Assembly (NCBI GenBank): GCA_001768195.1
Contig: MENI01000096.1
Span: 1-64,000, forward strand
DNA from: Bacteroidetes bacterium GWA2_40_15
GTDB lineage: Bacteria; Bacteroidota; Bacteroidia; Bacteroidales; VadinHA17
DNA length: 64,000 bases
Reading direction: 5' to 3'
Below, piece by piece: positions 37,081-52,541 of the stretch; position 1 is the stretch's first letter, and each line of letters begins with the position of its first letter. Under the pieces are notes generated by a model that was not told the DNA's origin, did not search any database, and saw only the letters and a list, made by a program, of their open reading frames with translations. The position numbers and the translations under genes were made by a program.

Positions 37081-37140
37081 CTTATTTTACTTTCTGACAC
37101 TGATTTCTGAATTAAATTATTAGTTTCAATGTTCTCCCGT

Positions 37141-37360
37141 TTCTAATAGTTTAGAAAGGTTAAACCTTCTGGCGGTATAATTAGTAAGCGTTACCCGACG
37201 AATCCGCCAATCGGCGGAGAAGTCGTGGTCTGGGTTTATCACAAGTTACAAAACTGTCATGGGTGCAGGAGTAAAAGTTGAGGAGCGTAGCGACGAAAAC
37301 CCGCCATGGCGGGGCAAAAACCGTGACAGGCAACTTACCTTTATTGTCCGTAATATAAGG
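37141..37360 (-). repeat. attC-like element A, after the DUF1801 gene
   Basis: Read on the minus strand, the element begins 8 bp after the DUF1801 stop with the motif TTATATTACGGACAATAAAG and GGTAAGTTGCC. It contains two strong palindromes, CCCGCCATGGCGGG (37300-37313) and TCCGCCAATCGGCGGA (37203-37218), and ends in a region with GGTTTAACC. The start motif and GGTAAGTTG are shared with elements C and E. Confidence 0.55.
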
Positions 37361-37368
37361 CGTTCCAT

Positions 37369-37797
37369 TTAATTAACCTTATAAGTTTTTTTCATATCAG
37401 AAACTGAAGTTGAGATTATTTCTTTCAATACATCAAAGTTGATATCCTCAATCTTATTGACATAAATACATGACCCAGAACTGATTTTATATTTACCGAG
37501 TTTACTCAGTAAGTCTTTATAATTATTGACTCCTGATATGATGTATATTGCTATGTATTGTTTACGTGGTGAAAATCCCGTTAACGGCCAATCACCTTCT
37601 TGTTTACTACGATCAGACTTGTAATGATACGAACCATATCCTATCATATTGTTGTTCCATAAGGAAGGTTTTTCTTTTACTACACTATCGAAGAGTTTTT
37701 TCAATTCCAAACTATCTACCCGTTTTTTTTCGGGCTCAACACTCATCAGAAATTTATCAATATCAAAATCACTTGGTTTTGTTTTAATTTCACTCAT
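37369..37797 (-). CDS. DUF1801 domain protein
   Basis: This 142-residue protein shows the DUF1801 signature: MIGYGSYHYKSDRSKQEGDW followed by PLTGFSPRKQYIAIYI, then LLSKLGKYKISSGSCIYVNK and a conserved tail (VLKEIISTSV). Biochemical role unknown. Unlike its neighbours it has a near-perfect Shine-Dalgarno sequence, and it is flanked by attC-like elements A and B, as expected of a gene cassette. Confidence 0.85.
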   Translation of the reverse strand: MSEIKTKPSDFDIDKFLMSVEPEKKRVDSLELKKLFDSVVKEKPSLWNNNMIGYGSYHYKSDRSKQEGDWPLTGFSPRKQYIAIYIISGVNNYKDLLSKLGKYKISSGSCIYVNKIEDINFDVLKEIISTSVSDMKKTYKVN

Positions 37798-37801
37798 AGT
37801 A

Positions 37802-37808
37802 TCTCCTT
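37802..37808 (-). promoter_or_regulatory. Strong Shine-Dalgarno of the DUF1801 gene
   Basis: On the minus strand AAGGAGA lies four bases before the ATG at 37797. Most Bacteroidota genes, including those nearby, lack such a site and use A-rich leaders. It supports the start codon and hints at foreign origin of this gene. Confidence 0.75.
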
Positions 37809-37924
37809 CTTTTTGTATATTATCAGTAAGATAACAATTTTCGAAACAGGTTTGTTGGTTATCTGGTCAGAATTTATTCTTACAAGACAATTCGTCCTGA
37901 AATTATCTTATTTGCAGGATTTTA

Positions 37925-38020
37925 ATGCCTAAAACGGCCCGGCAATAAAAGGAATTTGTGTTGCTGAGTGAATGGAGGCTGGAGCAGACAAACAAATAGC
38001 ATTGTCCATGCTTGTTATCT
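37925..38020 (-). repeat. attC-like element B, after the DUF6855-like pseudogene
   Basis: On the minus strand the element begins about 20 bp after the stop codon with AGATAACAAGCATGGACAAT and ends GCCGGGCCGTTTTAGGCAT. The left motif (taAC..GGACAATGCT) matches elements F and G, and the right end (CCGGGCC) matches D and E. Length about 96 bp. Confidence 0.55.
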
Positions 38021-38040
38021 GTAGTGTTTTTCGTATTCTG

Positions 38041-38454
38041 CTACGTCGCTCTCATTTTATTTCCCTTTGCATCATGAGTTACTTCGGCAAGCCCAAGTTT
38101 TTCCATTAATGGCGGAATATACATCCCAAATCGCCCGCGAAGTCCTTTCTTTAGTCCATACCAACCACCAACAGGATTATTTTCAGAACGTCCCCAGGCT
38201 TCAACTGTTCCTCCTTTTGCAGGTTTTTGTTCGTCTGCACTTCCAATCTCCATCCAATCTCCATGCTTTTTAAGCATCGCATGAAGATCATCAAGACATC
38301 TATAGTTATAGTATAATACAGTCTTGCCAACAGTACATACGAGCACTTCTCAGTTGTCCTTCACATCCTTGTGCATCGTAAAGTCGGATGAAAGAGGCGG
38401 CGTTTTAATCGTCCATGGATTTTTTTTTGTGCCTTTTTCTGTTGTCATCGTCAT
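38041..38454 (-). pseudogene. DUF6855-like small protein gene with in-frame TGA
   Basis: The frame starts with ATG at 38454 (MTMTTEKGTKKNPWTIKTPP) and runs through SSDFTMHKDVKDN to a TGA at 38352-38350, then continues EVLVCTVGKTVLYYNYRCLD to the end (137 codons in all). The downstream part (GTVEAWGRSENNPVGGWYGL) is a strongly conserved small-protein family recalled as DUF6855. One codon change separates it from an intact gene. Flanked by element B, it looks like a former cassette gene. Confidence 0.72.
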
Positions 38455-38616
38455 ATATTTTATTTGTAAATATGTCTAAATTAAACACAATTCAATTCTA
38501 TATTGTTCAAAGTCATAATGTTTGCAGTAGTTCCAAACGTTGTTATGGGCTTAAAACAACACGGAAATATTTTCTGCATTACAAATGCAGACAAGTAAGG
38601 GGAAAATAATTTATGC

Positions 38617-39033
38617 CTATTTCTTACCCATACCCATTACCCAGGCAATTACTACTCCGGTAATAGCCGACATAATTGTGAAAACAATAATATCAACAAA
38701 CATTGCGGTTAGATTCGAAAACATACTGGTCATAGCATAAAAACTGAGATCAAGATAAAGAGATAACAACAATCCTGTGATTGCTGCAACTTTTGCTCCT
38801 GCCATTATACCTGTGGTGTTTGACCAACTGAATACTATTGACAACAGGAATCCAAGAGCGAGATTAGATAAAACCAACGCCCACCAAATCATTTCTTGCA
38901 TTGGTCTCATAGCACATTGATTGTAATTAGCTGTCAAGTAATCCATTAGTAGTACTCCATAAATTAACCATCCTAGCAGGAAGAAACTCACACCTCCGGT
39001 TATTCCTCCGAGTAAAATCTTGTTTGTTTTCAT
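38617..39033 (-). CDS. Small four-helix membrane protein of unknown function
   Basis: This 138-residue protein has four predicted membrane helices (about 7-31, 47-70, 77-97 and 106-134). Helix 1 begins ILLGGITGGVSFFLLGWLIY, a pattern seen in widely spread but uncharacterised Bacteroidota membrane proteins. The leader carries a threefold TAAAAATT-type repeat just before the ATG. No clear attC-like element follows it. Confidence 0.7.
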   Translation of the reverse strand: MKTNKILLGGITGGVSFFLLGWLIYGVLLMDYLTANYNQCAMRPMQEMIWWALVLSNLALGFLLSIVFSWSNTTGIMAGAKVAAITGLLLSLYLDLSFYAMTSMFSNLTAMFVDIIVFTIMSAITGVVIAWVMGMGKK

Positions 39034-39493
39034 AATTTTTAATTTTTAATTTTTAAAAAGCTTTTTGATGTAGTCCCGTTTTTTGAGTGGTTGCTGGTTT
39101 CCACTGTTGAAATGAAATATTAAAACATTTTCTAAATGTCAGAAAGTATCTCGGTCCGTTGTTTCAATGCTGTTTTTTAAGCTTGGCCAAAACAACTTAA
39201 TAAATGTAATTGGTTGCATTTATTTGCGCTTTAGGTGAAGCCTGTACTAAATTTAAACATCCTGATAAACAGGTGTATATACAATTTGCTTGTGATTGTC
39301 ATTTAATTGTGTTTATTTAATTAAAATCAAATCAAATCATATAGATGTTTTTCTAACAAACAATTCAAGTTTAAATTTGTTCTTACAAAATATGGAGTTA
39401 TAAAAATTATTTAGTTGAAAATACCAATCCTTGTAGACGGTAAAGAGTTATTTCGTCATGAATAATCACAATATTATGGGAATGAGAAAGATT

Positions 39494-39660
39494 GAGCCTT
39501 TACTGGTGAAATAGAGCTTAAACTTTCATACTTCTTGTCTATGGCTAAAATGCAAAGCATCTTTGCTGCTCTGTCAGGGGCAGATGAAATTGTCTTGAAA
39601 ATATAGTAAATAAGTTTTGGCATGTCTTTAGTCAGGTCTGATTTTACAAGTCCCGGAGCT
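39494..39660 (-). pseudogene. Possible short-chain dehydrogenase C-terminal remnant
   Basis: One minus-strand frame reads APGLVKSDLTKDMPKLIYYI, then SAPDRAAKMLCILAIDKKYE. This resembles the C-terminal part of short-chain dehydrogenases (HPG.V.TDL... then .PE..A....YLA). No start or NAD-binding motif is found nearby. The rest of the 749-bp gap 39034-39782 shows no gene. Confidence 0.4.
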
Positions 39661-39782
39661 GTTTAAGCTCAAATTCTCCACAGTCAATTCTAATGTCTCG
39701 CGAGTCTAATTTTTGGTTGAGTAAATTACAAAAATGTGTTTTGTTTTTGGTTGCATAATGATTGCAGTGGTTTAAAAATTTA

Positions 39783-41279
39783 TTATTCTGAGAAGAAAGT
39801 GGTCACCGAATTAGGTGGTGCATTATAAAGCAGTTTTCCTTCGGCAGAAGATACCTCTCCAAGGTCAGTGTATTTCTCATCTTTGCTGTTTGTTCTGAAA
39901 ATCCTGAATTTTGTCGATTTAGCGCCTTTAATGGTCAGATCAACCTGTTTCTCTATGCTTGCAGAAGTATTGACAACAATAAAGGCATCCTTGTTCATTG
40001 TTCCATTTGAGGCGAATGCAATCACAGGCAATTCATTATCCATACTCATAGTCCAGACTACTTTCATTCCGGGCTGACCAGCCCTTGATACCTGCTTATA
40101 GAAATAATAGCCTGGCTGGATTTCATATTTGCCGTCATCGCTGACTCTTATTGCACACCCTGGATTGGGATCTCCGCCCACCCAGAGAGGAGGCCTCTGA
40201 ATACCAGCCCATGGAATAATTCCGTTGACCTGTACCTCGTAGATATTACCCCATATCTCCTTAATGAATTTTGCATCCATCCGGCTCCATGATGTTGATG
40301 TTACCCATGCATGAAGTTCCGGTCTTAATGATCTAAGATAACTTATACCAACATTGGTATGACTTCCGTACCATCTATTGTCATATCCACCTGCATAGAA
40401 TCCGTGGGAAGTAATAATTCCCAGATTTTTCAGGGCAGCAGGATTTGCGGCAATCTCTTCAGGGAGTCCCCAGAAACTGAAACGATACCAGTTTGTCGGC
40501 TCCCCGTTTGTAACTCTGATATCATTTAAACCTGCTTTATCAAGCTTTGGCTGCATAAATGCAAGGAATTCACAAACCTGCGAAGGAGGCCAGAACATAT
40601 TATAATCGTGTCCTTTGCCTATGTTGCCCTCTTTTCCATCCAATGGCCACCTCTCCCAGTCCTCACCTTCATTATGAAGTGAGATATACTTTACAGGAAA
40701 TTTTTCTTTCTCCTTAAGGAATTTAACCCAGTCAATCAGATATTCAGCCAGATCGTTTTTATGTGCCGGATCAAGATCGCGGCCCCGCATTACCTTCTGA
40801 AGTGTCATGTAGGCAGGTGGTCCGTAAAGTGTAGTAATGATCTGAAGATTTCCACCCCATGAGTGGGTTTTTTCCAAACCCATACGGACGAACATCATCA
40901 TGTTTGAAGTTGAGCTTACATGATTGTATTTACCCTCGGGATTGTTCTGATGGAAGGGATCAAGAAACATTTTCATCAGACCTACCTTTAGTCCATTTTC
41001 GCCGAAGACAAGGTCGATGATCTCATTTCTGCTATGTGTTGTCATAATGCTGAAGCCTCCATAGTCTTTAGCGTCGGTATTATAGTCAATGGTCTGGGCT
41101 GTCTCAACATAATTAAAGCCAAAACCATCCCAGTCCCTGAGGACCTTTGAAAAATCCACTGTAGCCGGGCATCCTGTAAATACCGCATATTGTGCCTGAA
41201 TTCCATGAATCATAAAACACAGTAAAATAAAAATCAGTAAAAAGTCAATTCGTCTCATATAGTGTAGTTTAAGTCTCAC
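39783..41279 (-). CDS. GH30-like exported glycoside hydrolase
   Basis: This 498-residue protein has a signal peptide (cleavage after IQAQ; the ATG at 41258 would give a shorter leader). It has a TIM barrel beginning WDGFGFNYVET and a C-terminal beta-sandwich ending NSVTTFFSE, the GH30 layout. The acid/base position is in ISLHNEGEDW. At the place where GH30 enzymes have the nucleophile Glu (W.TE), this protein reads AWVTSTSW, so the nucleophile is either elsewhere or lost. Possible substrates are beta-glycans such as xylan or glucan. Confidence 0.65.
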   Translation of the reverse strand: MRLKLHYMRRIDFLLIFILLCFMIHGIQAQYAVFTGCPATVDFSKVLRDWDGFGFNYVETAQTIDYNTDAKDYGGFSIMTTHSRNEIIDLVFGENGLKVGLMKMFLDPFHQNNPEGKYNHVSSTSNMMMFVRMGLEKTHSWGGNLQIITTLYGPPAYMTLQKVMRGRDLDPAHKNDLAEYLIDWVKFLKEKEKFPVKYISLHNEGEDWERWPLDGKEGNIGKGHDYNMFWPPSQVCEFLAFMQPKLDKAGLNDIRVTNGEPTNWYRFSFWGLPEEIAANPAALKNLGIITSHGFYAGGYDNRWYGSHTNVGISYLRSLRPELHAWVTSTSWSRMDAKFIKEIWGNIYEVQVNGIIPWAGIQRPPLWVGGDPNPGCAIRVSDDGKYEIQPGYYFYKQVSRAGQPGMKVVWTMSMDNELPVIAFASNGTMNKDAFIVVNTSASIEKQVDLTIKGAKSTKFRIFRTNSKDEKYTDLGEVSSAEGKLLYNAPPNSVTTFFSE

Positions 41280-41318
41280 ATCAAATGAAAATTGGAAGTA
41301 AAAGAGCAGCCAGCAATA

Positions 41319-41747: not shown

Positions 41748-41757
41748 GTATTTGTTA

Positions 41758-42233
41758 CTAAATATTGATCAGGTCATTAATCTCATCAAGATGCAATTTA
41801 AGATGTGTGGGGAAATCTACAATCATTGTTCGTAAAGTCATATTTTTTTCGGGACCTGAAATCCACTCATTTTCCAGTTTTCATCATTTACATTATTGAT
41901 CACATGACATAAATGAAGAAGGGAATATTTCCAGAGCTGGATCATGTTATTCCAGTCTGCAACCTCATAATTTTGAATTGCTATCCAGCGATCGTTGTTT
42001 CCAAATGTTGCATAGTTTGGAAAGGAGAATGGACTCTTCTGATATTGCAGATGAACTACTCTGTGGGTGTTGTTTGATGTTGAATCAATCAAGTGACCGG
42101 GTATTTGCTTAATATTTCGAAGCCGATTGTTTCTTGGTTCTGTAATTGATTGTTCTGACAGGGATGTCAGCCTGGGTACCCATTTTTCAATCAGTGTGCA
42201 AATTTCGAATGTAATCTGAGTGGCTTCTTTCAT
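41758..42233 (-). pseudogene. DinB-like protein gene with frameshift near its 3' end
   Basis: From ATG 42233 the protein follows the DinB-like four-helix pattern (QIPGHLIDSTSNNTHRVVHL; ADWNNMIQLWKYSLLHLCHV) up to NDENWK. It then ends at a TGA in the frame reading MSGFQVPKKI. In the next frame the DNA continues EWISGPEKNMTLRTMIVDFP to HLDEINDLINI and a TAG at 41760-41758, a natural ending. A small indel near 41870-41885 has split it. DinB-like proteins are putative metal-dependent thiol or DNA-damage-related enzymes. Confidence 0.82.
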
Positions 42234-42269
42234 AGTAAGTGTCTAGTGTGTAAGTAATTGCTTTATAAT

Positions 42270-42340
42270 GGGAGGAGAGCAAAAAGTGTGATACCTGTCC
42301 CGCGGATGCGGGAAACAACTTACCACCGACCGTGTTAGCT
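42270..42340 (-). repeat. attC-like element C, after yoeB
   Basis: On the minus strand, 5 bp after the yoeB stop, comes AGCTAACACGGTCGGTGGTA, then AGTTG and the hairpin TCCCGC-GGAT-GCGGGA type palindrome (42298-42313), followed by TATCACACTTTTTGC. The same series of blocks occurs in element E. The far end is not clear. Confidence 0.55.
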
Positions 42341-42345
42341 TGTGC

Positions 42346-42615
42346 TCAATATTTTTTGTCATAATGAAACCGACAAGCAAAGATCAAGATATCTGAATCA
42401 TTAACCTGGTAAACTAATCGATGCTCAAGGTCAATACGCCTTGACCAATAACCAGCGAGATCAAATTTCAATGGTTCTGGTTTGCCAATCCCCTCATAAG
42501 GAGTTCTTTGAATGTCCTTAATCAGGGCATTTATTTTCTTGAGGGTCTTTTTGTTTTCGGTTTGCCAATAGACATAATCTTCCCATGCATTTTTTGAAAA
42601 AATAATCTTTATCAT
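42346..42615 (-). CDS. yoeB: YoeB toxin, ribosome-dependent mRNA interferase
   Basis: This 89-residue protein matches YoeB along its length: YVYWQTENKKTLKKINALIK, IGKPEPLKFDLAGYWSRRID and EHRLVYQV, ending in CRFHYDKKY. The catalytic Arg (SRRI/EHR) and the C-terminal His-Tyr are present, so it is probably active. It cleaves mRNA in the ribosomal A site when released from YefM. It overlaps the antitoxin gene by 4 bp. Confidence 0.95.
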   Translation of the reverse strand: MIKIIFSKNAWEDYVYWQTENKKTLKKINALIKDIQRTPYEGIGKPEPLKFDLAGYWSRRIDLEHRLVYQVNDSDILIFACRFHYDKKY

Positions 42616-42866
42616 TCTTCAATCAAGCTATGTTTAACCCTCTTTCCGGTTTTCATCTGCTCGATTGATTCAAAAAGTCTTTTTGCATTTTTCTTAGAAC
42701 TTAATAAATGCAAAGTCTCCATGATTGAATTATATTCGTCAAGGGATATTAATACAGTCCCTTTTCCGGAGCCTCTCTTGATAATCAAAGTCTCATTGTT
42801 ATTTTCAACATTGTCAAGATAGTTTTTAAGTCCGGTCCTGAATTCTGTATAATTTGCTGCTATCAT
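42612..42866 (-). CDS. yefM: YefM antitoxin (Phd/YefM family)
   Basis: This 84-residue protein has the Phd/YefM DNA-binding part (NYTEFRTGLKNYLDNVENNN, ETLIIKRGSGKGTVLISLDE, YNSIMETLHLL) and a C-terminal tail that would wrap YoeB. It neutralises the toxin and represses its own operon, for which two GTAC-centred sites lie just upstream. Confidence 0.95.
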   Translation of the reverse strand: MIAANYTEFRTGLKNYLDNVENNNETLIIKRGSGKGTVLISLDEYNSIMETLHLLSSKKNAKRLFESIEQMKTGKRVKHSLIEE

Positions 42867-42892
42867 TGTATATTAATTTAAGTGTCTAATTA

Positions 42893-42910
42893 AGTACAAA
42901 TATAAGTACT
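42893..42910. promoter_or_regulatory. Paired YefM-like operator sites
   Basis: Two sites, AGTACA (42893-42898) and AGTACT (42905-42910), lie 27-44 bp upstream of the yefM ATG. Their centres are 12 bp apart, the same spacing as the two TGTACA palindromes of the Escherichia coli yefM operator. They are probably bound by YefM-YoeB. Confidence 0.55.
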
Positions 42911-42960
42911 TTATTTTGTAATTGCAAATATTTACTGAACGATTAATAAGTCTACAATGT

Positions 42961-43091
42961 TGCCAGACGGCCCGGTGGTATTGGGAGTTGCCGTTCCGCC
43001 AGCTGGCGGATCAGGGTTGGCATGTGTTTTTGCACATCCCGATAGCTATCAGGCCCGGCGCAGTCCTTTCCCACATTGTCCGTATCAGCGG
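42961..43091 (-). repeat. attC-like element D, after the SpoIIE sensor gene
   Basis: On the minus strand it begins 16 bp after the sensor stop with CCGCTGATACGGACAATGTG and ends CCACCGGGCCGTCTGGCA. A perfect 16-bp palindrome TCCGCCAGCTGGCGGA (42995-43010) and the palindrome GATAGCTATC lie inside. The right end matches elements B and E (CCGGGCC). Confidence 0.55.
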
Positions 43092-43107: not shown

Positions 43108-46100
43108 TCATAAACGGATTCCAATCACGGTAATATCATCAGTTTGATTCCAATCTTTCTTCCAGTTTAAAAGTTTCGTTTCGAGGATTTCTCTTTGGTG
43201 CGACATTGGCAATTCATGTATTTCCAATAACGTCAGATAAAAATGTTGAGATAAATATTTTTTGTCAAAATCTCCGCCAAACTGATCCTGATATCCATCG
43301 GAAAACAGGTAAAATACATCACCTTTTCTGTATTCAATTTCTTTCATTGTAAAAGGACCAGCATTACCATATAAAACGCAAACAGATAAGCGATCTGCTT
43401 TTATTATTTCCATTTTTCTATCACGTATGAAGACAAGATTACTCATCCCTCCTGTATATTGAATTCTTTTCTTTTCCTGATCAACTACGCATAGAGCTAT
43501 ATCCATTCCATCTGATGTTGGAATATCATTCCTGCTTTGCTGAAGTGAACCAATAACTCTTTCACGTAACTTAGTGACGATGGCATCCGATTGTGTGATT
43601 CCTTCAACATTAACTATCTCATTTAATAATGTAATGCCCAGGAGGCTCATGAATGCGCCAGGTACTCCATGTCCGGTACAATCAGCCACAGTAACAACAA
43701 TTTTATTATCTTTTTCTGCCAGCCAGTAAAAGTCACCGCTTACTATGTCTTTTGGTTTATTCATTAAAAAGTTGTCGGGCAATAATTTATCAAGGAGCTC
43801 CAGGGGAGGTAAAACTGCATTTTGGATGTGGCTCGCATAGGTTATACTTGAAATGATATTGGTATTCTTTACATCAATCAGATTACGTTGCAATTCAATT
43901 TCATCTTTCTGACATTGAATTTCATAAGTCCGTTCCCGGACTTTTTCTTCGAGTATTCTTTTCTCAGCCAGGAATTTATATTCACGCCTTTTTATATAAA
44001 CGAATGTCACGATGAACAGAAGAATGACGGCAGAAGGATAGAACCACCATTTCTTCCAGACAGGCTTTTCTATGATAATATTTATGGTCAACGGATTTTC
44101 CGATACAGCACCATCTCCGCTGGAGGCTTTTAAAATAAATGTATAGTTTCCTTCAGTCAGACGGGGAAAAGTGACAAATGTGCTTTTTGTAATTTCAGAC
44201 CATTGATCATAACCTTCCAGTTTGTACTGATAGTTGACAAGTGCCGGGTCCTTTAAATTGATTCCCAAAAAATCAATTCGTATTTTGTAATTACCGGGAG
44301 ACAGTATTATTCTATCAGAAATATCTTTTTCTATATCGTTAATCCTTATTGATGTAATTCCTAAAGCCGGTGGTTTTATCTGAGGATACTCCATTGATGG
44401 ATCATAGGAAACCATCCCTTTATCAGATCCGAACCAGATTTTTCCCTGTTGATCATTAATTATTGCATTCGGATTAAACTGGTAATTTTCCGTCAGGCCT
44501 TCAATACGTTGGATAGGTTTAACTGAAAAATCAGAGGTTCTGATTCTGCTTAATCCACCCTTATGCCCCACCCAAATGTTCTTATTATTATCAGAAACAA
44601 GCGAATAGCAATAATTTGATAAAAGACCTTCTTTCACAGTAAGATTTGCAACAGAATCGGACTCAGAGGCTATCATAAAAACTCCATTCCCATACGATCC
44701 AACCCAAATTCTTGAGTCAGAATCTTCAGTAATCGGCCCTAATGTTAAAATTCCGCTCCCCGGATTTACAGGTATCTTAAACACCTTTTCATCCTGAATG
44801 TATGCCAGCGTATTACTGTGAGTGCTTATCCATAGTTTACCTGTTCTGTCTAAAAATAAGCAGTTAATAAAATTATGAGGTAAGCCGCCCTGGTTAATAG
44901 AATACCAATTTATACTATTGGTAGCTGTATTAATACTGCATAATCCTTTTTTTGTGCCGATCCAAACCTGTTCTCCTTTACCGGTAATAATGTTTATAGA
45001 GTTTTCAAGTGTTCCACTTCTTATCGGGTACTTAAGAATCCTCTCATTCCCTGCTTCCATCCGGAATACCCCGTTACTTTCAGTTCCGATCCAAAGTTCT
45101 TTTCCATCGGTAGAATATATCGATGTAACCGTATCTTTTGGTAATCCGCTCTCTTTGCCATAAAATTTAACAAATTTACCTGTCATATGATCCATTTTTA
45201 CCAGGCCATTTTCTGTCCCTATCCACCTGTATTGCCTGTTGAACCAGATTGAAAAAATGTTGTTTCCGAATAAAGGATTATCAAATTTACTGACGGAAAA
45301 AGTTTTCGGTGTGATCAGTGTTAATCCCTGACCATAATTGCCACTCCATATATTCCCTTCACGGTCTTCATAAACAGTATTTACATCATTTGTTGCAAAG
45401 TTATTGGCCCTATTAAAATAAATAATCTTTGTTGACTCTCCAGAGGCGGAATAACTCATTTTAATGAGCCCATTCTCATTTCCTTTAGAACACAACCATA
45501 AATTTGACCGGCTGTCTTCATAAATATCCTGTATACCGGTGAAGTCAAAATCCGTGGAGGCAATTATCTTTGAAACCTTAATCTGGTTGTCTAAAAAAGT
45601 AAGTTGAAATATGCCATCATCTTCTGTTGCAATATAAAATCCGGACTTATTTCTCATTTTTTGAATACATATGACTTTGGATTCAGGAATTTCTGAAACA
45701 GACCGGATTATTTCAATTTCACCTGATTCTTTTAATCTGCAATATAATAAACCGGTATATGTACCAACAAGCAATTCACTATTATCAAGAAAGGCAAATG
45801 ATATTATAATTGTTTGATCCTTAAACACATAATGTTCTATCACACCTGTATCTTTACTCAATTTCAATAAGCCATCGGAATAGGTACTAACCCATATCCG
45901 GTTATCCGGGCTTTTTGCAAAATGTGTAATAGAGCTTAAATCCGGTTGGGTTATGTTGAAAGTAATGAACTTTCTGCCATCAAAGTATGATAAGCGGCCA
46001 TTCCTATGGCCAAACCACAGGCTTTCCCCATCGCTAATACTGTTAGCAATAAAATTGTCTGCCAATGAGTCACTGGTAGGATAGTTTTCAAATTTAAATC

Positions 46101-46290
46101 CATCATATCTGAATAATCCGTTATCTGTGCCGACCCACAAATAGCCTTGCACATCCTGGATGATCGAATAAACATAGGATTGGGTCAATCCGTCTTCTGA
46201 ATTGAAATTACGGAAATTATAGCTCTGAGGAAATGCCTGGCTGGTCAGAGCCGAAAAGAATAAAAGTAATATCCCTTTCCAATTTTTCAT
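43108..46290 (-). CDS. Propeller sensor protein with SpoIIE-type phosphatase output
   Basis: This 1060-residue protein has a signal peptide (ending SQAFPQ), about thirteen two-component-regulator propeller repeats (each like LWVGTDNGLFRYDG; residues about 25-640), a Y_Y_Y domain (about 650-725, ending YTFILKASSGDG), one membrane helix (about 735-755), a coiled coil, and a SpoIIE/PP2C domain (about 830-1060). The phosphatase has SGDFYWLAE, VTVADCTGHGVPGAFMSLLG and FYLFSDGYQDQFGGD, whose Asp residues bind metal. It should sense a periplasmic ligand and dephosphorylate a partner inside the cell, probably an anti-anti-sigma factor. It ends an operon of four surface-related genes. Confidence 0.88.
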   Translation of the reverse strand: MKNWKGILLLFFSALTSQAFPQSYNFRNFNSEDGLTQSYVYSIIQDVQGYLWVGTDNGLFRYDGFKFENYPTSDSLADNFIANSISDGESLWFGHRNGRLSYFDGRKFITFNITQPDLSSITHFAKSPDNRIWVSTYSDGLLKLSKDTGVIEHYVFKDQTIIISFAFLDNSELLVGTYTGLLYCRLKESGEIEIIRSVSEIPESKVICIQKMRNKSGFYIATEDDGIFQLTFLDNQIKVSKIIASTDFDFTGIQDIYEDSRSNLWLCSKGNENGLIKMSYSASGESTKIIYFNRANNFATNDVNTVYEDREGNIWSGNYGQGLTLITPKTFSVSKFDNPLFGNNIFSIWFNRQYRWIGTENGLVKMDHMTGKFVKFYGKESGLPKDTVTSIYSTDGKELWIGTESNGVFRMEAGNERILKYPIRSGTLENSINIITGKGEQVWIGTKKGLCSINTATNSINWYSINQGGLPHNFINCLFLDRTGKLWISTHSNTLAYIQDEKVFKIPVNPGSGILTLGPITEDSDSRIWVGSYGNGVFMIASESDSVANLTVKEGLLSNYCYSLVSDNNKNIWVGHKGGLSRIRTSDFSVKPIQRIEGLTENYQFNPNAIINDQQGKIWFGSDKGMVSYDPSMEYPQIKPPALGITSIRINDIEKDISDRIILSPGNYKIRIDFLGINLKDPALVNYQYKLEGYDQWSEITKSTFVTFPRLTEGNYTFILKASSGDGAVSENPLTINIIIEKPVWKKWWFYPSAVILLFIVTFVYIKRREYKFLAEKRILEEKVRERTYEIQCQKDEIELQRNLIDVKNTNIISSITYASHIQNAVLPPLELLDKLLPDNFLMNKPKDIVSGDFYWLAEKDNKIVVTVADCTGHGVPGAFMSLLGITLLNEIVNVEGITQSDAIVTKLRERVIGSLQQSRNDIPTSDGMDIALCVVDQEKKRIQYTGGMSNLVFIRDRKMEIIKADRLSVCVLYGNAGPFTMKEIEYRKGDVFYLFSDGYQDQFGGDFDKKYLSQHFYLTLLEIHELPMSHQREILETKLLNWKKDWNQTDDITVIGIRL

Positions 46291-47246
46291 TTCATCCGTA
46301 TTTTCGGAGAATAAACAGGTCTACCTCCTATAGGAACCACATAAAATGGCAACGAAATCCCATACTGGTTCCTGACAGTGATCACAACATTATTGTTTTT
46401 TACCTGCACGGATTTATTCTTAATGAATTGTATCTCAACAGTTGAATTTTTTTCTTCATCCAATATCGGGAATTCCCTTATTATCCAATTGTCGTCTCCT
46501 GAAACATCACATGGGATGCCATTCTTGGCAACTGAAAATATGCGGATTATTCCATCATTGTCCCAGTCAAAATTTGAGACCTGGATAGAGATGGTCCTGT
46601 CATCCACAAAAGGATATATCTGTGATACATGTTGTTGATCATCCGATAACCTCAAATGATATTTATAGGTAAATAAATTACCTCCCTCAACAGCAATATT
46701 TTCAACCGGGCTCGTACTTAAAAAGTATTTATATAAATTTCCGTCATCCCCTGATATCCCCTGAGCGATTATTTTAAATACCCTACCCCCAAGTTTCGCA
46801 ACATATTCTCCTTCAGAAGGATTAAAAGGTCCAAAACTATACCACTTTTTATCGTATTCCGGATCAAACCCAAATGATTTGGATGACGATAAATATCCGT
46901 TCCTATAATTTCCAGTTTTACTAATAACCAGAGCTGCTGTATCCAACCAGCAACCTTTCCCAGCATAAATTGAGAAGTTTGTAATAGTATTATATTCTCC
47001 CTTGGGTTCATCAAGGGCTCCTCCTGTATCGGGATCATAAACCCGGATATATACAGGATCAGTTTGTGATGAAGGAATAAGACAATAGAATATCTGACAC
47101 AAATCATCATCCCCCCAGGATGTACTGGCGTTTCCTCCAAAAGTCATCAGGTAAGGAATGTTTTCATCGATCGCAGGAGCAGATTGTGAAAGGAGAGGTG
47201 TGGCCGCCAGTAGAAGAAATAATATTATGCAGATATATTTTTTCAA
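46287..47246 (-). CDS. Exported protein of unknown function in the sensor operon
   Basis: This 319-residue protein has a signal peptide (ending LLSQS). The mature part is rich in beta strands and aromatic residues; it has segments such as IYAGKGCWLDTAALVISKTG and FDPEYDKKWYSFGPFNPSEG, and a late domain with repeated short Val/Asn strands (VQVKNNNVVITVRNQYGISL). It ends four bases inside the sensor gene, so the two are translationally coupled. Perhaps it supplies the ligand or scaffold for the sensor; no family is recognised. Confidence 0.65.
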   Translation of the reverse strand: MKKYICIILFLLLAATPLLSQSAPAIDENIPYLMTFGGNASTSWGDDDLCQIFYCLIPSSQTDPVYIRVYDPDTGGALDEPKGEYNTITNFSIYAGKGCWLDTAALVISKTGNYRNGYLSSSKSFGFDPEYDKKWYSFGPFNPSEGEYVAKLGGRVFKIIAQGISGDDGNLYKYFLSTSPVENIAVEGGNLFTYKYHLRLSDDQQHVSQIYPFVDDRTISIQVSNFDWDNDGIIRIFSVAKNGIPCDVSGDDNWIIREFPILDEEKNSTVEIQFIKNKSVQVKNNNVVITVRNQYGISLPFYVVPIGGRPVYSPKIRMK

Positions 47247-47247
47247 A

Positions 47248-48549
47248 TTAATTGATTATTATTTTTTTCATGACACAAATCTTAGGGATCACTCTGAGAC
47301 TATCTTTTTCAGCAAGTAAGCCCAGCTTAACCATATATTCACCTTTCTTTTTGAATGTTGTATTCATTAATGTACCGCCTGTTTTAAAGCCATCTCCAAA
47401 GTCCCAGAAATAATCTGTTATCATGATACCTTTAAGGTCTCTTGTAATCCCCTCAAATGAGATTGGTTTCCCCACATTACCAATATTATATGAATTAATG
47501 TAAGCCTGTTCAATGTTTTCAAGTTCAACTTTATAGTTAACCTGAAACGCTAAAGTGTCGCCTGTAAGTTCATCAAATATACTAAGCTTAACCGAGAATT
47601 TTCCCGGACCTGGAAAGCAATGTCTCACCTCTTTCCCAAGTCGTATTATTCCATCGCTAAAATCCCACTTATAAATTACTTGTACAGTATCAATAAGTTG
47701 ATGATGTTCATCATAGAATGTAAAACAATAATTATTCTCCTTTACTGTATCGCAATTCGTAAATTCTACCGGTGCTGAGTTGAAAATGAAAATATCATCT
47801 GTTTTCAGTCTGTTTGTAGAAAAATACCCGTTCTCAAAAGTTGAATCAGTAACAAGGCAAAAATTATCAGCTGTTGAATTTATTGCTGAATCGAGGTGCA
47901 CCGGAACTATCCATTCTCCATTTATCTCCTGAGTATAATAAAGATCCTTCCCGCCAAAACCATTTCGTCCGTCTGATGCCAAAAAGAGTTTGCCAAACTT
48001 ACCTGCAAAAGGGAAGGATTCATTTTTTGCTGTATTTATAACCGGTTCCAGATTTACAGGTATATCCCAGTCATTATTGCGTCTGTTGCAATAATAGAGA
48101 TCTATTCCCCCACTGCCACCTGGCATATCAGAAGAAGAATAGATACCAAGTTTATTTGAGGTATCGGAAATGTTTCTCATAGAATTCTTGATGAAACTGT
48201 TTCTGGAATAGTACATGATATTCCCATTTTCATTGAATGTTACCGGCCCATCGTTAAAATCAGTTGTTATCTCCTTTGCCAGTATCTTTGGAAAGTTCCA
48301 TCCCGAAATGCCCTTTTTTGTTACAAAGAATATTTTAAAAAGCTTATTTTGTTCATCAACATAACTAACCAGGGAATTGGTGCTTTGGTTTGAACAAAAA
48401 ACTATTCCTCCCTTATAAAATACAGGGGAGAATTCATCATATATCCTGGAACTAAATGGGGCCGGTTTTACATTAAAACGCTCAGGTTGGGCATATAATT
48501 CAGTATTTATCAACGATGTTAAAATTATTATAAAAAAATACCTGCTCAT
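47248..48549 (-). CDS. Exported protein with PD40-like repeats and PKD domains
   Basis: This 433-residue protein has a signal peptide (ending LYAQ), WD40-like PD40 strands (FSPVFYKGGIVFCSN; NESFPFAGKFGKLFLASDGR, then GGKDLYYTQ) and two PKD-type domains (KWDFSDGIIRLGKEVRHCFP; DYFWDFGDGFKTGG, each followed by KKGEYMVKL-type strands). The layout resembles surface or type IX secretion-related proteins of Bacteroidota, but the OmpA-like C-terminal domain of many such proteins is absent. It lies 1 bp before the next gene of the operon. Confidence 0.7.
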   Translation of the reverse strand: MSRYFFIIILTSLINTELYAQPERFNVKPAPFSSRIYDEFSPVFYKGGIVFCSNQSTNSLVSYVDEQNKLFKIFFVTKKGISGWNFPKILAKEITTDFNDGPVTFNENGNIMYYSRNSFIKNSMRNISDTSNKLGIYSSSDMPGGSGGIDLYYCNRRNNDWDIPVNLEPVINTAKNESFPFAGKFGKLFLASDGRNGFGGKDLYYTQEINGEWIVPVHLDSAINSTADNFCLVTDSTFENGYFSTNRLKTDDIFIFNSAPVEFTNCDTVKENNYCFTFYDEHHQLIDTVQVIYKWDFSDGIIRLGKEVRHCFPGPGKFSVKLSIFDELTGDTLAFQVNYKVELENIEQAYINSYNIGNVGKPISFEGITRDLKGIMITDYFWDFGDGFKTGGTLMNTTFKKKGEYMVKLGLLAEKDSLRVIPKICVMKKIIIN

Positions 48550-48581
48550 AAAAATAATCTTCTAAAAATGTCTTGGCCCAG

Positions 48582-50162
48582 TCACTTTTCGTACATATCT
48601 GAATACATTGCATATGGACCAAATCCTGTTGCATTCAGGTCGATGTTGTAGTTTGTTGATGCCAGGGAATTCTTAGCCAAAGCGGACCAATAACCTGTTG
48701 TGAACTGGTTTATTATCTGAGATCCATCTCCATCAGTTAGAGGAAGATCCAAATTTCCAGGATCACTGGTTATATATTGAACAAGCAATGAGCCTGCAGT
48801 CAGATTAGCAAAATTTGCTGTTAAAGATTGAATTTGGCCAATTGTACCAACCGGGGAAAAATAATTTATTGAGGTTGTATTAATAAATCGTTCGAATCTG
48901 CCAACTATGCCTGCGGTGTAGTTAAGGGCAGTCGATAGGGGATTTGATAATATAAGTGTATTAGCGGCTGTGCTGATATTTCCCGAGTTCATGTACAGCG
49001 TACCACCTGCAGTAACCGTGTTAGTTAAGGTTATACCGTTAATATTGTTAATTGTAAAATTATTTACAGTAGCTGGCAAATAAGTGCCGGTAACCTGAGC
49101 TGCAGTTCCATCAAAAGTATAATTAGCAGAAGTGGATAAAGACCTCGACGTTGTTTGTATTGATCCATTCACCCCTAAAAGATTAGCAGTTTGTAAAGTT
49201 GCCCCGTTGCTTAGGGTAAATGTACCACCACCATTAGCGTAATCATTTGCTCCAAAATCAATTGTAACAGTTGAATTTACTGCAAATCCGATATTATTTG
49301 AAATGGCGCCGGCAGTTCTTCTGAAGTTTTGGGTTGTTCCCCCATTATCAAAGACAAATATCCCTGAGCTGATGTCGGTCTCACTTAGTGTACCTCCGGT
49401 CATATTGAAATCGCCACCGATGTTAACGGTACCGGAACCTGTGTTGGTTGCCAGATTAAATGTGCCACCAGATATATTAAAATCACCGGAAATATCAAGA
49501 ATCCTTGGGATAATATTTGAGAGTCGTATTGATCCAGTACCAGTGCTTACCAAAGTAAAATCTCCTGTAACAGCTCCACCATTATCTACCGCTAATGGAT
49601 TAATATTAAGATCTGATACAGTCTGTCCTGAGCAGTTCCAGGGAAAATTGCCAAAAGATTGACCTAATCCATTAGGAACATTTGTGGTTACTCCTGTAAT
49701 ATTACAATTTGACGATGCGTTCCATGTAATATTAGGAATTGATCCCTTATCCCGGTTGTGATTATACGTGGAAAAAGCATTAAAAACTACTGTGCCAGGT
49801 TGTGACAGAATTCCTGAATTATTAACTGTCCCCGATACAGTTAAATCTATTCCGGGACCATTGGATAAAGTAAAGTCTTGTCCCGCATCAATGGTCAGGA
49901 CTCCGCCACTTGCAACAACTACCTGATCTAACGCCTTATTTGCAGTTACTGTTGCTGTATGATCAGCTCTGATTGTAATTACATTATCTCCCTGGACAGG
50001 AGCAGCACCATCAGCTATCCAGGCTACTCCATTGTACCGTTGCCAGTTTGCTGCTGCCGCAAATGTCACATTACCGTTAGTCCTGAAGTCATCTGCTGAT
50101 TGTCCAAAGGATGCATTTGCAACTAGCAGCCAGCAACCAGCGACCAACCACAACTTCTGCAT
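48582..50162 (-). CDS. Secreted beta-strand-repeat protein, apparently C-terminally truncated
   Basis: The start at 50162 (MQKLWLVAGCWLLVANASFG) gives a standard signal peptide; an upstream ATG at 50231 would add 23 residues. The rest is a run of beta-helix repeats (IDLTVSGTVNNSGILSQPGT; VNIGGDFNMTGGTLSETD). After ATGFGPYAMYSDMYEK comes a TGA; comparable proteins usually go on for a further 100-150 residues to a type IX sorting domain, so the 3' end may be cut. It opens the four-gene operon. It is probably exposed at the cell surface. Confidence 0.65.
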   Translation of the reverse strand: MQKLWLVAGCWLLVANASFGQSADDFRTNGNVTFAAAANWQRYNGVAWIADGAAPVQGDNVITIRADHTATVTANKALDQVVVASGGVLTIDAGQDFTLSNGPGIDLTVSGTVNNSGILSQPGTVVFNAFSTYNHNRDKGSIPNITWNASSNCNITGVTTNVPNGLGQSFGNFPWNCSGQTVSDLNINPLAVDNGGAVTGDFTLVSTGTGSIRLSNIIPRILDISGDFNISGGTFNLATNTGSGTVNIGGDFNMTGGTLSETDISSGIFVFDNGGTTQNFRRTAGAISNNIGFAVNSTVTIDFGANDYANGGGTFTLSNGATLQTANLLGVNGSIQTTSRSLSTSANYTFDGTAAQVTGTYLPATVNNFTINNINGITLTNTVTAGGTLYMNSGNISTAANTLILSNPLSTALNYTAGIVGRFERFINTTSINYFSPVGTIGQIQSLTANFANLTAGSLLVQYITSDPGNLDLPLTDGDGSQIINQFTTGYWSALAKNSLASTNYNIDLNATGFGPYAMYSDMYEK

Positions 50163-50640
50163 ACCTATCCCATTCAGCCTTTTAATTGCTGTCATTAATC
50201 CAGAATCAATATTTGCATACGAAGCAATCAAGCTATCAGGTTCAGTTCAATCAAAATAAATTACATCCGACTTCATAATCTTTTTTTTTAAAAGCCGATC
50301 AGTATTTATTCTATTTTCAATATCCGTTTAATAATAAAAACGGACAAATCTTATATCCTGTTTAAAGACTTCTATAAACAAATCAAAGTTGCACAGCAGC
50401 AACCGTTTGTTAACATATAAAGATAAGAATTATTATGAAAATTTGTATTTTTTTTGACCAATTAGGGAAATGCATTGATAGCTGTATTATTCAAAAAAAC
50501 TTACAATACTACAGGTTAAACGGACATGAAATTATGAATGTTCTAAAAGGACTAAACGTCGTTAGTCGTTTATTTGGGAAATCAAGGTTAAGGACTAATC
50601 AGTCTCACTTTAGAAGATCCACCCCAACTCCAGGTTCATA

Positions 50641-50805
50641 GAATATTGCACGGACGGTTAGCATGCAGGTGAAACAGGTAGTAGACGACTGTCAGCTAAA
50701 GTCTTCATTGTATATTTTATTAGTATCTTATAAAGGCATATGCTATTTTGAGATTATCCAAATTTTTGTCATTTCCGAAGTTCTGATTCTGTTGAATTTT
50801 TGTTT
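50641..50805 (-). repeat. Truncated copy of the TA1 cassette (leader, 16-codon start, attC-like left half)
   Basis: Positions 50698-50805 repeat 51551-51658 (the TA1 promoter and start codon) with four mismatches in 108 bp. After the copied ATG the frame ends after 16 codons (MKTLADSRLLPVSPAC). The stop TAA is part of GCTAACCGTCCGTGCAAT, a match to the start of the attC-like elements. So the antitoxin and toxin genes were lost from this copy, while its two boundaries remained. Confidence 0.65.
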
Positions 50806-50810
50806 TGTAT

Positions 50811-50984
50811 GCCAGCTGATGGCCCGGCGGTTGAGGGAGAAAACGTAGGTGGCGCCGTCCGCCGATACGAGTCCCGGTACTTTAGCCACGAAACTCCGCC
50901 TTGGCGGGCGCAAAAAGTGTGAGAACCGTGCCAGCCATAGCCTTGGCGAAGGCTGGACAACTTACCTTTTGTCCGTGTTAGCTG
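50811..50984 (-). repeat. attC-like element E, after the TA1 toxin gene
   Basis: On the minus strand, 14 bp after the toxin stop, comes CCAGCTAACACGGACAAAAG, then GGTAAGTTGTCC. The element ends CCGCCGGGCCATCAGCTGGC. Between them are several inverted repeats (CCAGCC..GGCTGG; CGCCCGCCAAGGCGG). The blocks match elements A and C at the start and B and D at the end. Length about 174 bp. Confidence 0.6.
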
Positions 50985-50999
50985 GTGAACTATTATAAA

Positions 51000-51365
51000 T
51001 CATTCAAGATCAAGCACTATTTTGATATTCTCTTTTATTTTTTGTTGAAGATCTTGGGGTAGTTCTCCAACTTTATTTGTTAGTCTTCGATTGTCAATCG
51101 CCCTTATTTGATCAATCATTATATCAGACTCACTTTTTAGGTTTGCGGTCCCATTTTTAAGATGAACCCTCAATATATCACTTTCAGGAGCGACATTTGT
51201 AGTTATAGGACAAACAATCGTTGAAGGATGCTCCCGAAGGAGATTTGTTTGGACAATCAAAACAGGTCTTACTTTCCCAGTCTCGGTTCCTCTTTGTGGT
51301 TCCAAGTCCGCTATCCAGATATCAAATTGCCTAATTTTCATCCTGAAGCGTTTCAAATTCAGCAA
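51000..51365 (-). CDS. TA1 toxin, PemK/MazF family
   Basis: This 121-residue protein has the MazF order: IWIADLEPQRGTETGKVRPV (the loop and conserved RPV), LIVQTNLLREHPSTIVCPIT (with the Thr/Ser near the RNA site), DIMIDQIRAIDNRRL and a C-terminal helix. It should be an mRNA interferase. It overlaps the antitoxin gene by 35 bp, and element E follows it. Confidence 0.9.
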   Translation of the reverse strand: MLNLKRFRMKIRQFDIWIADLEPQRGTETGKVRPVLIVQTNLLREHPSTIVCPITTNVAPESDILRVHLKNGTANLKSESDIMIDQIRAIDNRRLTNKVGELPQDLQQKIKENIKIVLDLE

Positions 51366-51561
51366 GGACAGTAAGAGATTCTTTCTTAACTATTCTGGAT
51401 TCTTTTGCTAGTTTTTTAGCAATAAGACTTCTGCGATTGATCCTGTTATAGTAATCAACAGCTTCATTAATGTATCTGTTTCTTGACTTTTTAACTTTAG
51501 TCAGAAGATCTTCGGTTTCGTCAAAGATGTTGTCATCGAGTTTTAAAGACAAAGTCTTCAT
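51331..51561 (-). CDS. TA1 antitoxin
   Basis: This 76-residue protein has a ribbon-helix-helix-like N-terminus (MKTLSLKLDDNIFDETEDLL, then VKKSRNRYINEAVDYYN) and a charged C-terminal tail. It fits the antitoxin of a MazF/PemK-type toxin. The promoter and an inverted repeat across the -7 box lie just upstream, and a second decayed copy of this leader lies at 50698-50805. Confidence 0.85.
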   Translation of the reverse strand: MKTLSLKLDDNIFDETEDLLTKVKKSRNRYINEAVDYYNRINRRSLIAKKLAKESRIVKKESLTVLAEFETLQDEN

Positions 51562-51573
51562 TGTATATTCTAT

Positions 51574-51615
51574 TAGTATCTTATAAAGGTATATACTATT
51601 TTGAGATTATCCAAA
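51574..51615 (-). promoter_or_regulatory. TA1 promoter with operator-like inverted repeat
   Basis: On the minus strand TTTG (51612-51615) and TACCTTTA (51584-51591) are spaced by 20 bp, as in Bacteroidota -33/-7 promoters. The inverted repeat TAGTAT/ATACTA (51574-51579 and 51593-51598) brackets the -7 box and is a likely antitoxin binding site. In the decayed copy at 50698-50805 one arm is broken (ATGCTA). Confidence 0.6.
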
Positions 51616-51660
51616 TTTTTGTCATTCCCGAAGTTCTGATTCTGTTGAATTTTTGTTTAT

Positions 51661-51753
51661 CTAGTTTTTTGTCCGGGTGTAGTCTGCAAAAATTGTGACT
51701 GCCTGTCCCGCACAGCGGGAAGCTTATTAAATATAGCATCGTCCGCGTTAGCC
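51661..51753 (-). repeat. attC-like element F, after the TA2 toxin gene
   Basis: On the minus strand, 18 bp after the toxin stop, comes AGGCTAACGCGGACGATGCT, then ATTTAATAAGC and the palindrome TCCCGCTGTGCGGGA (51706-51720), followed by CAGTCACAATTTTTGC as in element C. It lies directly upstream of the TA1 leader. Length about 93 bp. Confidence 0.6.
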
Positions 51754-51771
51754 TTAGCTTTTTATTTTTTT

Positions 51772-52095
51772 TTAATCAACGAAAGTCTCCTTTAAGATTG
51801 CTTTGACCTCTTTAATTTCATGTCTAGATAGTTTTCCAAGGTCCTTGACAATACGTTGTTTATCAATAGTTCTGATCTGATCTAGCACTATCCATCCGAT
51901 TTTATTGTCATGTTTAATCTCGACTCGAGTGGGATAGTTCTTAGAACTTGTTGTCATTGGGGCTATTGCAACAGTTCTTAAATGATTATTCATCTCGTCA
52001 GGAGAGATTACAACGCAGGATCTGGTTTTCTTGATCTCGCTCCCAATGGTTGAATCAAGGTTTACCAGAATGATTTGGTATTGCTTTATTTCCAT
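51772..52095 (-). CDS. TA2 toxin, MazF family
   Basis: This 107-residue protein has the MazF pattern IILVNLDSTIGSEIKKTRSC, VVISPDEMNNHLRTVAIAPM, TTSSKNYPTRVEI and GWIVLDQIRTIDKQRIVKDL. Length and order are normal, so it is probably an active mRNA interferase. It overlaps the MazE-like gene by 10 bp and is followed by element F. Confidence 0.92.
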   Translation of the reverse strand: MEIKQYQIILVNLDSTIGSEIKKTRSCVVISPDEMNNHLRTVAIAPMTTSSKNYPTRVEIKHDNKIGWIVLDQIRTIDKQRIVKDLGKLSRHEIKEVKAILKETFVD

Positions 52096-52331
52096 TCTTC
52101 AAGGTTTTCTTCTTCGAATATGTCTGGCATAATCAGTTTGTCGTCCCCATTTGCATGCATTTCAATAAATGCTTTGTCCCAGCCTTTTCTTGGTTTTGCG
52201 AGCGGCTTGATAATGATATGCTCTTTATCCAGAATCATTTCAACTGTATCACGGATATTATACCTCTCTATAATAATTTTACTGAACCTTATCCCCCTCG
52301 AATTTCCAATTTTTATTACTGATACTTCCAT
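52086..52331 (-). CDS. TA2 antitoxin, MazE/AbrB-like
   Basis: This 81-residue protein starts with a swapped-hairpin AbrB domain (VSVIKIGNSRGIRFSKIIIE, then VEMILDKEHIIIKPL) and ends in an acidic tail (MPDIFEEENLEEWK) that would bind the toxin. A palindrome that fits an autoregulatory site lies 17 bp upstream of its ATG. Confidence 0.92.
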   Translation of the reverse strand: MEVSVIKIGNSRGIRFSKIIIERYNIRDTVEMILDKEHIIIKPLAKPRKGWDKAFIEMHANGDDKLIMPDIFEEENLEEWK

Positions 52332-52347
52332 GACATTTTCAATTTAT

Positions 52348-52370
52348 ATGTAATTACAAAGTAATTACAT
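52348..52370. promoter_or_regulatory. Perfect inverted repeat, probable operator of TA2
   Basis: Two perfect 10-bp arms, ATGTAATTAC and GTAATTACAT, are separated by AAA. The repeat lies 17-39 bp before the mazE-like start codon, in the promoter zone. MazE proteins with MazF commonly repress from such sites. Confidence 0.65.
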
Positions 52371-52484
52371 TTTTTTGGATTTCCAAATTATGTGATTCTA
52401 TTTTATTGGTTTTCTGTCTCGGTGCAGTAATTATCAGATTATGATCAGGAATTTAAGAAAACTGAATTTGTGTAGGAGGCACCT

Positions 52485-52541
52485 TGTTAAGTCTAACAGC
52501 CCTGCAATAAATAGGGCCGAGCATTGTCCTTGTTATAGCCA
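52485..52541 (-). repeat. attC-like element G, short form
   Basis: On the minus strand it reads GGCTATAACAAGGACAATGC, then TCGGCCCTATTTATTGCAGG and GCTGTTAGACTTAAC. GGCCC/GGGC arms form a hairpin. At its right end GTTAGAC is an exact match to the integron core consensus GTTRRRY. At about 57 bp it is the size of minimal attC sites. It lies about 180 bp after the usp gene and next to the TA2 operator. Confidence 0.6.

Follow-up and report, generated by a model that had tools for sequence, protein, structure and literature searches.

According to excerpts of the IntegronFinder 2 paper, the integrons of Bacteroidetes comprise In0 elements and one complete integron, that of Salinibacter ruber M1, beside those of Chlorobi and Ignavibacteriae (PMC9024848), and excerpts of the archaeal-integron paper place Bacteroidota among the integron-bearing phyla and take an additional domain as a defining feature (PMC9668308). 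The I2 helix is credited, in an excerpt of another study, with the use of folded single strands by integron integrases (PMC7790495), and 'the lack of intermediates' appears in an excerpt of a paper on this use of folded single strands as one reason against reconstructing an ancestral integrase. Smyshlyaev et al. (2021, PMC8138268) distinguish an integron-like subgroup of simple tyrosine recombinases whose CAT-domain insertion 'is not fully conserved', and excerpts of that paper describe no cassette array, attI or Bacteroidia system for such members. Here, we analyzed a 64,000-nucleotide stretch of Bacteroidetes bacterium GWA2_40_15 (MENI01000096.1; referred to below as the window), which represents 64.0 of the 64.8 kb of contig C96 in a source genome (G000) of 4.77 Mb and 127 contigs, and in which an earlier note had proposed an integron-like gene-cassette array built around seven palindromic elements, A to G.

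That proposal is supported, with the window holding only a decayed part of an array. The elements are very probably attC-like sites of an integron-type cassette system of class Bacteroidia, akin to the integrons through which antibiotic resistance spreads but apparently run by an IntI-related recombinase without the IntI patch, and our verdict is that the system is widespread. The evidence comes from sequence comparison, namely from matched cassette ends, a recurrent site anatomy, one-way arrays, a conserved attI-like site, the linkage of recombinase and array, and the distribution across the class. Sites of this kind recur behind genes and fold in relatives, and a recombinase accompanies them; the earlier note had named the absence of all three as grounds for giving up its proposal. 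In a search of the open-access literature, with few subscription papers and no bioRxiv preprints, no description of such a Bacteroidia system was found among the papers listed.

Like a canonical integron, the system has a recombinase, one attI-like primary site and tandem directional cassettes, and it shares the R''/L''/L'/R' boxes, the GTT core, an extra-helical base, a variable arm and the SPx(D/E) integrase C-terminus, which is common to patch-less integrases and IntI. It differs in that the Bacteroidia integrase lacks the patch and I2 (the GKG-HxLRH spacing is 65-67 residues in measurable patch-less rows, compared with 107 for IntI and 71-73 for the seven Xer rows measured) and is encoded on the strand of the array, its attI following the 3' end of the gene. 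Moreover, the cassettes have a cassette-specific 9-nt end pairing with a conserved A.C mismatch, GTT[AG] is retained in the R box but variable bases stand where the GTTRRRY core would have RRRY, the variable arm often measures some hundred nt, and part of the integrase family carries an N-terminal extension.

Cassette ends and site anatomy

The motif found at the start of several window elements, GCTAACACGGACAATG, occurs at eight places in the source genome and led to contigs C79 and C125 and to the end of C26 (a match at C10:6711 did not look like a site and was discarded). On these contigs and in relatives, where the arrays are better kept than in the window, the elements again stand at the 3' ends of genes, as the earlier note would have it. 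Judged from its list of reading frames, C125 looks like an array of small units of one gene or one operon with the plausible genes on one strand, and the gene list of C79 shows one-way cassettes plus a transposase on the opposite strand. Each unit starts with TT..., directly after GCCGGGCCG, and at its far end the reverse complement of this start appears, followed by C. Beyond the tail come ACGGA and a first box, then a long arm that leads to the complementary box and CCGGGCC. By eye the rule fits five units on C125, and by script four of five same-contig intervals have a matched tail before the ACGGA spacer, the match in the remaining interval being located elsewhere. In general form, a cassette begins TTRnnnnnn, a head that is complementary over up to 9 nt to the cassette's own end, ...nnnnnnYAAC.

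For a wider test, 108 cassettes were cut between successive cores on 28 contig pieces of 11 genomes (C125 and similar arrays included), and heads set against other cassettes (11352 pairs) served as the control. Of the 108 cassettes, 85 show a match of 7 nt or more between own head and own body (403 of 11352 control pairs); the match extends, over at least 8 nt in 78 (128 control pairs, 1.1%) and over 9 nt in 62 (56 control pairs); matches of at least 10 nt are seen in none of the cassettes and in nine control pairs. The match ends at 9 nt because base 10 of the head, an A in 84 of the 85 cassettes with at least 7 nt, faces a C, which was found in 72. The tails pair long with their own head and meet the head of the next cassette over 2-5 nt only (78 of 85); the long match is therefore chiefly one that joins both ends of a single cassette, as a circle would.

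The order of parts in a site is R''-ACGGA-L''-(variable arm)-L'-CCGGGCC-R'. Among 60 sites with regular spacers, L'' agrees with the reverse complement of L' at a mean of 8.1 of 9 bases (37 perfect), against 5.5 in mixed pairs, and over the 23 distinct L''/L' combinations the agreement is 7.2 against 4.7; the two inner boxes covary. The first six L bases pair with their own partner in 50 of the 60 sites (CGGTTT 25, CAATAA 11, TGGTAT 5, CAATAT 3, CGGTTG 3, CGGTAT 2 and CGGTAG 1). The R box varies in sequence while its pairing is conserved, so recognition probably takes place on a folded single strand, and the circle is probably the favoured substrate. The hairpins that the earlier note anticipated were obtained as DNA folds for five short, well-kept sites of relatives (four contain N), the first of which gives a near-perfect hairpin with one extra-helical base and an unpaired GCC. 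Folding prediction makes the bottom strand more stable than the top strand in all five, and the circle form more stable than the array form, again in five of five (e.g. -40.4 vs -34.8 and -50.5 vs -42.4 kcal/mol).

These data also bear on the idea that recombination is not involved and that gene 3' ends simply carry structural repeats, such as repetitive extragenic palindromes or bacterial interspersed mosaic elements (REP/BIME-like), terminators or RNA elements. Their place after stop codons, their GC-rich composition and their folding would suit such repeats. Repeats of this kind do not account for far ends of a gene unit that are complementary in a cassette-specific sequence, for sites on one strand in 27 of the 28 pieces, or for an attI that adjoins the integrase gene; at gathering score, Rfam reported only one tRNA in the window, and no family overlaps the elements. 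We regard this explanation as extremely unlikely.

Three consecutive cassettes of two species (L212 on G035:C63 and L099 on G040:C5) are 99-100% identical over most of their length, two of them differing in total length, and some of the 108 cassettes are thus not independent, because G035 and G040 share these three. They may reflect recent transfer or binning contamination. Two further cassette pairs, 75-78% alike, are found in arrays of different genomes. G066 contains 87 exact GCCGGGCCGTTA motifs and several integrase relatives, possibly a very large array. A control with reversed GCCGGGCCGTTA was dropped, since its reverse, ATTGCCGGGCCG, is itself an L'-spacer of the CAATA class.

The patch-less recombinase and its attI-like site

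A search of the source genome with the IntI profile gave matches at two places, an IntI-like recombinase on contig C77 and a gene on C39, and found no integrase on the window contig. The C39 match, XerC/D-like and near EF-Tu, was rejected as an integrase. The earlier note had suggested looking for an integrase with the IntI patch and an attI site outside the window; a tyrosine recombinase with arrays and attI-like sites was indeed found, but the patch of about 40 residues is absent (23 residues between aligned blocks vs 66 in VchIntIA, 2a3v). In a quick tree of 84 rows, 11 IntI rows form one clade (100%) among the patch-less rows, and the seven Xer rows lie outside (100%); 25 of 109 rows were omitted by name as fragments, near-duplicates or outliers, long branches were flagged, and the exact position of IntI is not firm. 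This tree suggests that the recombinase groups with IntI rather than with the sampled Xer rows, and our guess is that the patch-less relatives fell within the 'integron-like' subgroup of Smyshlyaev et al.

The nearest named relatives of the C77 integrase belong to Bacteroidales metagenome-assembled genomes (MAGs). Where present, the N-terminal extension measures about 200 residues in the Bacteroidales type and gives sub-threshold Pfam matches only, to HARP (E 0.028 and 0.018) and DUF5710 (E 0.018 and 0.00018). Residues 1-200 of the integrases of loci L050-L066 contain two weakly similar repeats (hhalign probability 31%, P 5e-4), and one may guess that the extension binds branched or single-stranded DNA.

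In several genomes, the integrase of the C77 family lies upstream of an array on the same strand (G036, G038, G039, G040, G063 and, as a fragment, G043); in G039 it occupies 45.5-47.1 kb, and 18 cores follow from 41.9 kb downwards. The integrase gene of a canonical integron is usually, but not universally, divergent from its array, an arrangement that these six genomes do not show. At least two exact site motifs occur in 15 of the 27 family genomes with an integrase of at least 50% identity among the matches listed, against 13 of the 91 others (P = 4e-5), the 118 family genomes having been divided by this fixed rule. An earlier table (15/26 vs 13/92, P 2e-5), for which the integrase set had been loosely chosen, was replaced. 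At loci L100-L159, the contig end is nearer to the downstream side of the integrase in 41 cases and to the upstream side in eight (equal in 11), a bias that repetitive arrays would cause.

Behind the integrase stop codon, on the strand of the gene, an attI-like site, TATAAACRA|GTTA or similar, is present in many genera, with carriers in Lunatibacter, Lunatimonas, Algoriphagus, Brumimicrobium, a Saprospiraceae MAG, Spirosoma, Dyadobacter and a Chryseobacterium plasmid. In a first set of 69 loci, the pattern was found within 400 bp at 26 loci with enough downstream DNA and at 11 with too little; the first cassette has at least 8 matched nt in 15 of the 26 (16 of 642 in the control). A position-weight matrix made from first-set loci was next applied to another 29, which ranked highest after G000 among the class-wide matches with listed loci; two of them were too short. 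Scores of at least 12 were reached by 20 of the 27 test loci and by two of 81 control stretches, and the head of the first cassette is matched over at least 8 nt in seven of 15 test loci (0 of 313 in the control). Test and training loci share no near-identical DNA, their best match being 87% over 127 nt. Three relatives, L201 (G010), L139 and L158, gave no attI match of 8.5 or more within 4 kb; hence, not every relative is an integron integrase.

A complete plasmid of Chryseobacterium sp. SNU WT5 (L255, 11956-24988) carries an integrase annotated as 'site-specific tyrosine recombinase/integron integrase', the attI-like site ATATAAACAA|GTTGGG and a row of same-strand genes; the opposite strand encodes transposases and a group II intron reverse transcriptase that interrupt this row. 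A minus-strand control on this plasmid was uninformative, the repeat being palindromic.

A dedicated recombinase also matters for the view that the units are XerC/XerD-dif (pdif) modules, in which genes are flanked by sites that the XerCD of the host recombines. Tyrosine-recombinase sites that flank small genes, toxin-antitoxin pairs included, would be expected of such modules, and Xer and archaeal XerA resemble the patch-less proteins in their catalytic fold, the absence of a patch and similar profile scores. The seven Bacteroidia Xer rows, however, form a separate clade without the SPx(D/E) C-terminus, and the array-linked recombinase stands apart from XerC/D rows on the tree. The dif site is a conserved 28-bp site, whereas the sites described here are directional, long and hairpin-built with cassette-specific ends (no dif search was made). 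Modules of this kind are an exceedingly improbable source of the elements.

Integrase relatives, defined by an E-value of at most 1e-60 and taken as candidate integron integrases, were found in 147 of 295 genomes of class Bacteroidia; at 1e-40 the count is 246 of 295, with rows at about 1e-41 to 1e-52 taken for Xer. Canonical IntI above the curated cut-off occurs in 105 of 395 genomes across the phylum, of which 104 are outside the class. The sole case among the 295 class genomes is G154:C40 (L197, L254), and the source genome is not one.

These counts bear on the closest competing account, in which the window is an ordinary remnant, a cluster of attC sites lacking integron-integrases (CALIN). 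Its attC sites would then be canonical, and a canonical IntI with the patch would have moved them before being lost, or would do so from another place. The window has the make-up of a CALIN, with seven attC-like elements, cassette cargo and integrase-type matches on C77 and C39 only, and it resembles integrons in the R''-L''-L'-R' order, the GTT core and the types of cargo. Yet a patch-less integrase stands beside arrays or a conserved attI in many genomes, canonical IntI occurs in one of the 295 class genomes, and the R box keeps GTT[AG], not RRRY; the window sites would differ from a CALIN in belonging to a patch-less system whose integrase is elsewhere in the genome. A canonical remnant is, in our judgement, very unlikely.

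The window as a decayed part of an array

The seven elements lie where the earlier note had placed them, each 3' of a minus-strand gene. By its coordinates, six begin 5-20 bases behind a stop codon and G begins 176 bases behind. The features are as follows.

37141-37360, minus strand: element A, a degenerate attC-like site behind the DUF1801 gene; the 5' half ACGGACAATAAAGG is kept and R'' is decayed.
37369-37797, minus strand: DUF1801 protein (Pfam), cassette-type cargo of the unit from B to A.
37925-38020, minus strand: element B, degenerate attC-like; the R' side GCCGGGCC|GTTTTAGGC is kept, crossover base 37935.
38041-38346, minus strand: DUF6855 protein (Pfam), cargo upstream of element B.
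42270-42340, minus strand: element C, 5' half only (AAGCTAAC-ACGGTCGGTGG); the L'-R' half was not recognised by eye.
42346-42866, minus strand: YefM-YoeB toxin-antitoxin pair (Pfam), cargo of the unit ending in C.
42961-43091, minus strand: element D, a chimeric or nested site; the spacer GCCGGGCC/ACCGGGCC is present twice, crossover bases 43051 and 42968.
50698-50805, minus strand: repeated cassette head, second copy (96% identity with 51551-51658), beginning six bases behind the R' box of E.
50811-50984, minus strand: element E, attC-like; R'' CCAGCTAAC, R' ATCAGCTGG (read as decayed GTTAGCTGG), crossover base 50820.
51000-51365, minus strand: MazF/PemK toxin (Pfam), cassette between F and E.
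51551-51658, minus strand: first copy of the duplicated cassette head, a 108-nt repeat.
51661-51753, minus strand: element F, attC-like; R'' TAAGGCTAAC pairs with its own cassette head at 8/9, R' side lost.
51772-52331, minus strand: MazF/PemK toxin and an upstream small protein without a Pfam match, probably the antitoxin; this unit, from G to F, is the cassette best preserved in the window.
52485-52541, minus strand: element G, short attC-like; R'' TATAAC-AAGGA-CAATG ... R' GTTAGACTTA, crossover base 52497.

The start motif claimed for all seven elements holds for C, D, E, F and G, where GCTAACACGGACAATG is found with at most three mismatches, but A and B deviate more. These five places are the only ones in the window, compared with a mean of 0.24 in shuffles and at least five in none of 100 shuffles. 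The common ends were confirmed, with B, D and E ending in GCCGGGCC (ACCGGGCC in D) and G in CTGTTAGAC. Genes judged real read one way, on the minus strand, from 36.7 to 54 kb, and the frame list also shows overlapping plus-strand frames. As for the cassette-type cargo, a Pfam scan of 10 window proteins recovered YefM-YoeB, two PemK/MazF toxins, DUF1801, DUF6855 and DUF3795, but the proposed DUF4256 and 'DinB-like' protein (41838-42233) had no match, the latter being one of three proteins without any.

The MazEF unit has the only well-matched ends: its head, at G, is complementary to its tail, at F, at 8/9 with the A.C mismatch of the family, the best of 35 head-tail pairs. The tail of E matches the following head at 7/9, no better than one unrelated pair (B head and G tail), and the other units have no clear head-tail match. 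After raw folding, no hairpin common to the seven elements was recognised by eye. The 108-nt repeat is read as two tandem copies of one cassette, the second later cut short. Large genes at 39783-41279 and 43108-50231 are unlike cassettes, and those at 43108-50231, between D and E, are possibly a later insertion into the old array. The window thus contains an old, decaying part of an array with toxin-antitoxin and DUF cassettes.

Proposed mechanism and its significance

In the model we propose, a dedicated tyrosine recombinase without the IntI patch (I2 helix) would insert circular cassettes at the attI-like site behind its own gene. A cassette would consist of one gene or operon that begins TTR... 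and is followed by R''-[AT]CGG[AT]-L''-variable arm-L'-CCGGGCC. In the circle, the two ends of the cassette would meet and could form a stem of about 10 bp; insertion would break this stem and in the array mostly leave 4-5 bp of it, since the R' half is by then part of the following cassette.

Several points weigh against this reading and the assignment to a Bacteroidia integron system. Recombination, the use of folded single strands and cassette circles are all things we infer from sequence, and the better folding of circles follows partly from construction, through longer complementarity. The rules have exceptions: complementarity is below 7 nt in 23 of the 108 cassettes, the beginnings of L'' and L' are unlike in 10 of the 60 sites, one window unit alone has well-matched ends, and 13 of the 91 family genomes without a close integrase among the matches listed still carry at least two motifs. 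Most genomes are fragmented MAGs, and the cassettes shared by G035 and G040 could be contamination. The attI pattern is missing within 400 bp at 32 of the 69 first-set loci (20 of these were scanned to 4 kb, a scan without a control, and 12 score at least 12), and five of the 27 test loci score below 10. The integrase of the source genome lies on a contig other than that of the window, with no attI in the 750 bp to the contig end; in relatives of the same type, the distance from the gene to the attI behind it ranges from 62 bp (L108) to 921 bp (L113), with 782 in G073, and the attI of the source genome may therefore lie past the contig end.

The recombinase itself raises further doubts. The I2/patch region that it lacks has been described as essential for integron function. 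Profiles do not separate the C77 protein from Xer, its best NCBIfam match being XerA-type NF040815 (216.8 bits, cut-off 220), ahead of IntI TIGR02249 (179.6, cut-off 265), XerD (175.2) and XerC (171.4). Among solved structures, archaeal XerC-like and XerA proteins match best, ahead of IntI, and archaeal XerA is not in the tree.

A further idea is offered tentatively, with more doubt than confidence. Bacteroidia might have their own kind of integron that reads folded cassettes without I2, in which the end match acts as a licence; the full stem would exist only in the free circle and be broken by insertion, so that capture at attI would be favoured over loss. The integrase might then be, or descend from, a pre-I2 stage that gave rise to IntI.

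Integrons are hardly known from class Bacteroidia, and a patch-less relative is present in half of the sampled genomes of this class. With the matched ends as a rule, many cassettes that are still unannotated in genomes of Bacteroidota can be read. The question of folded-strand use becomes directly testable with natural relatives without I2 that stand beside attI and attC-like arrays.

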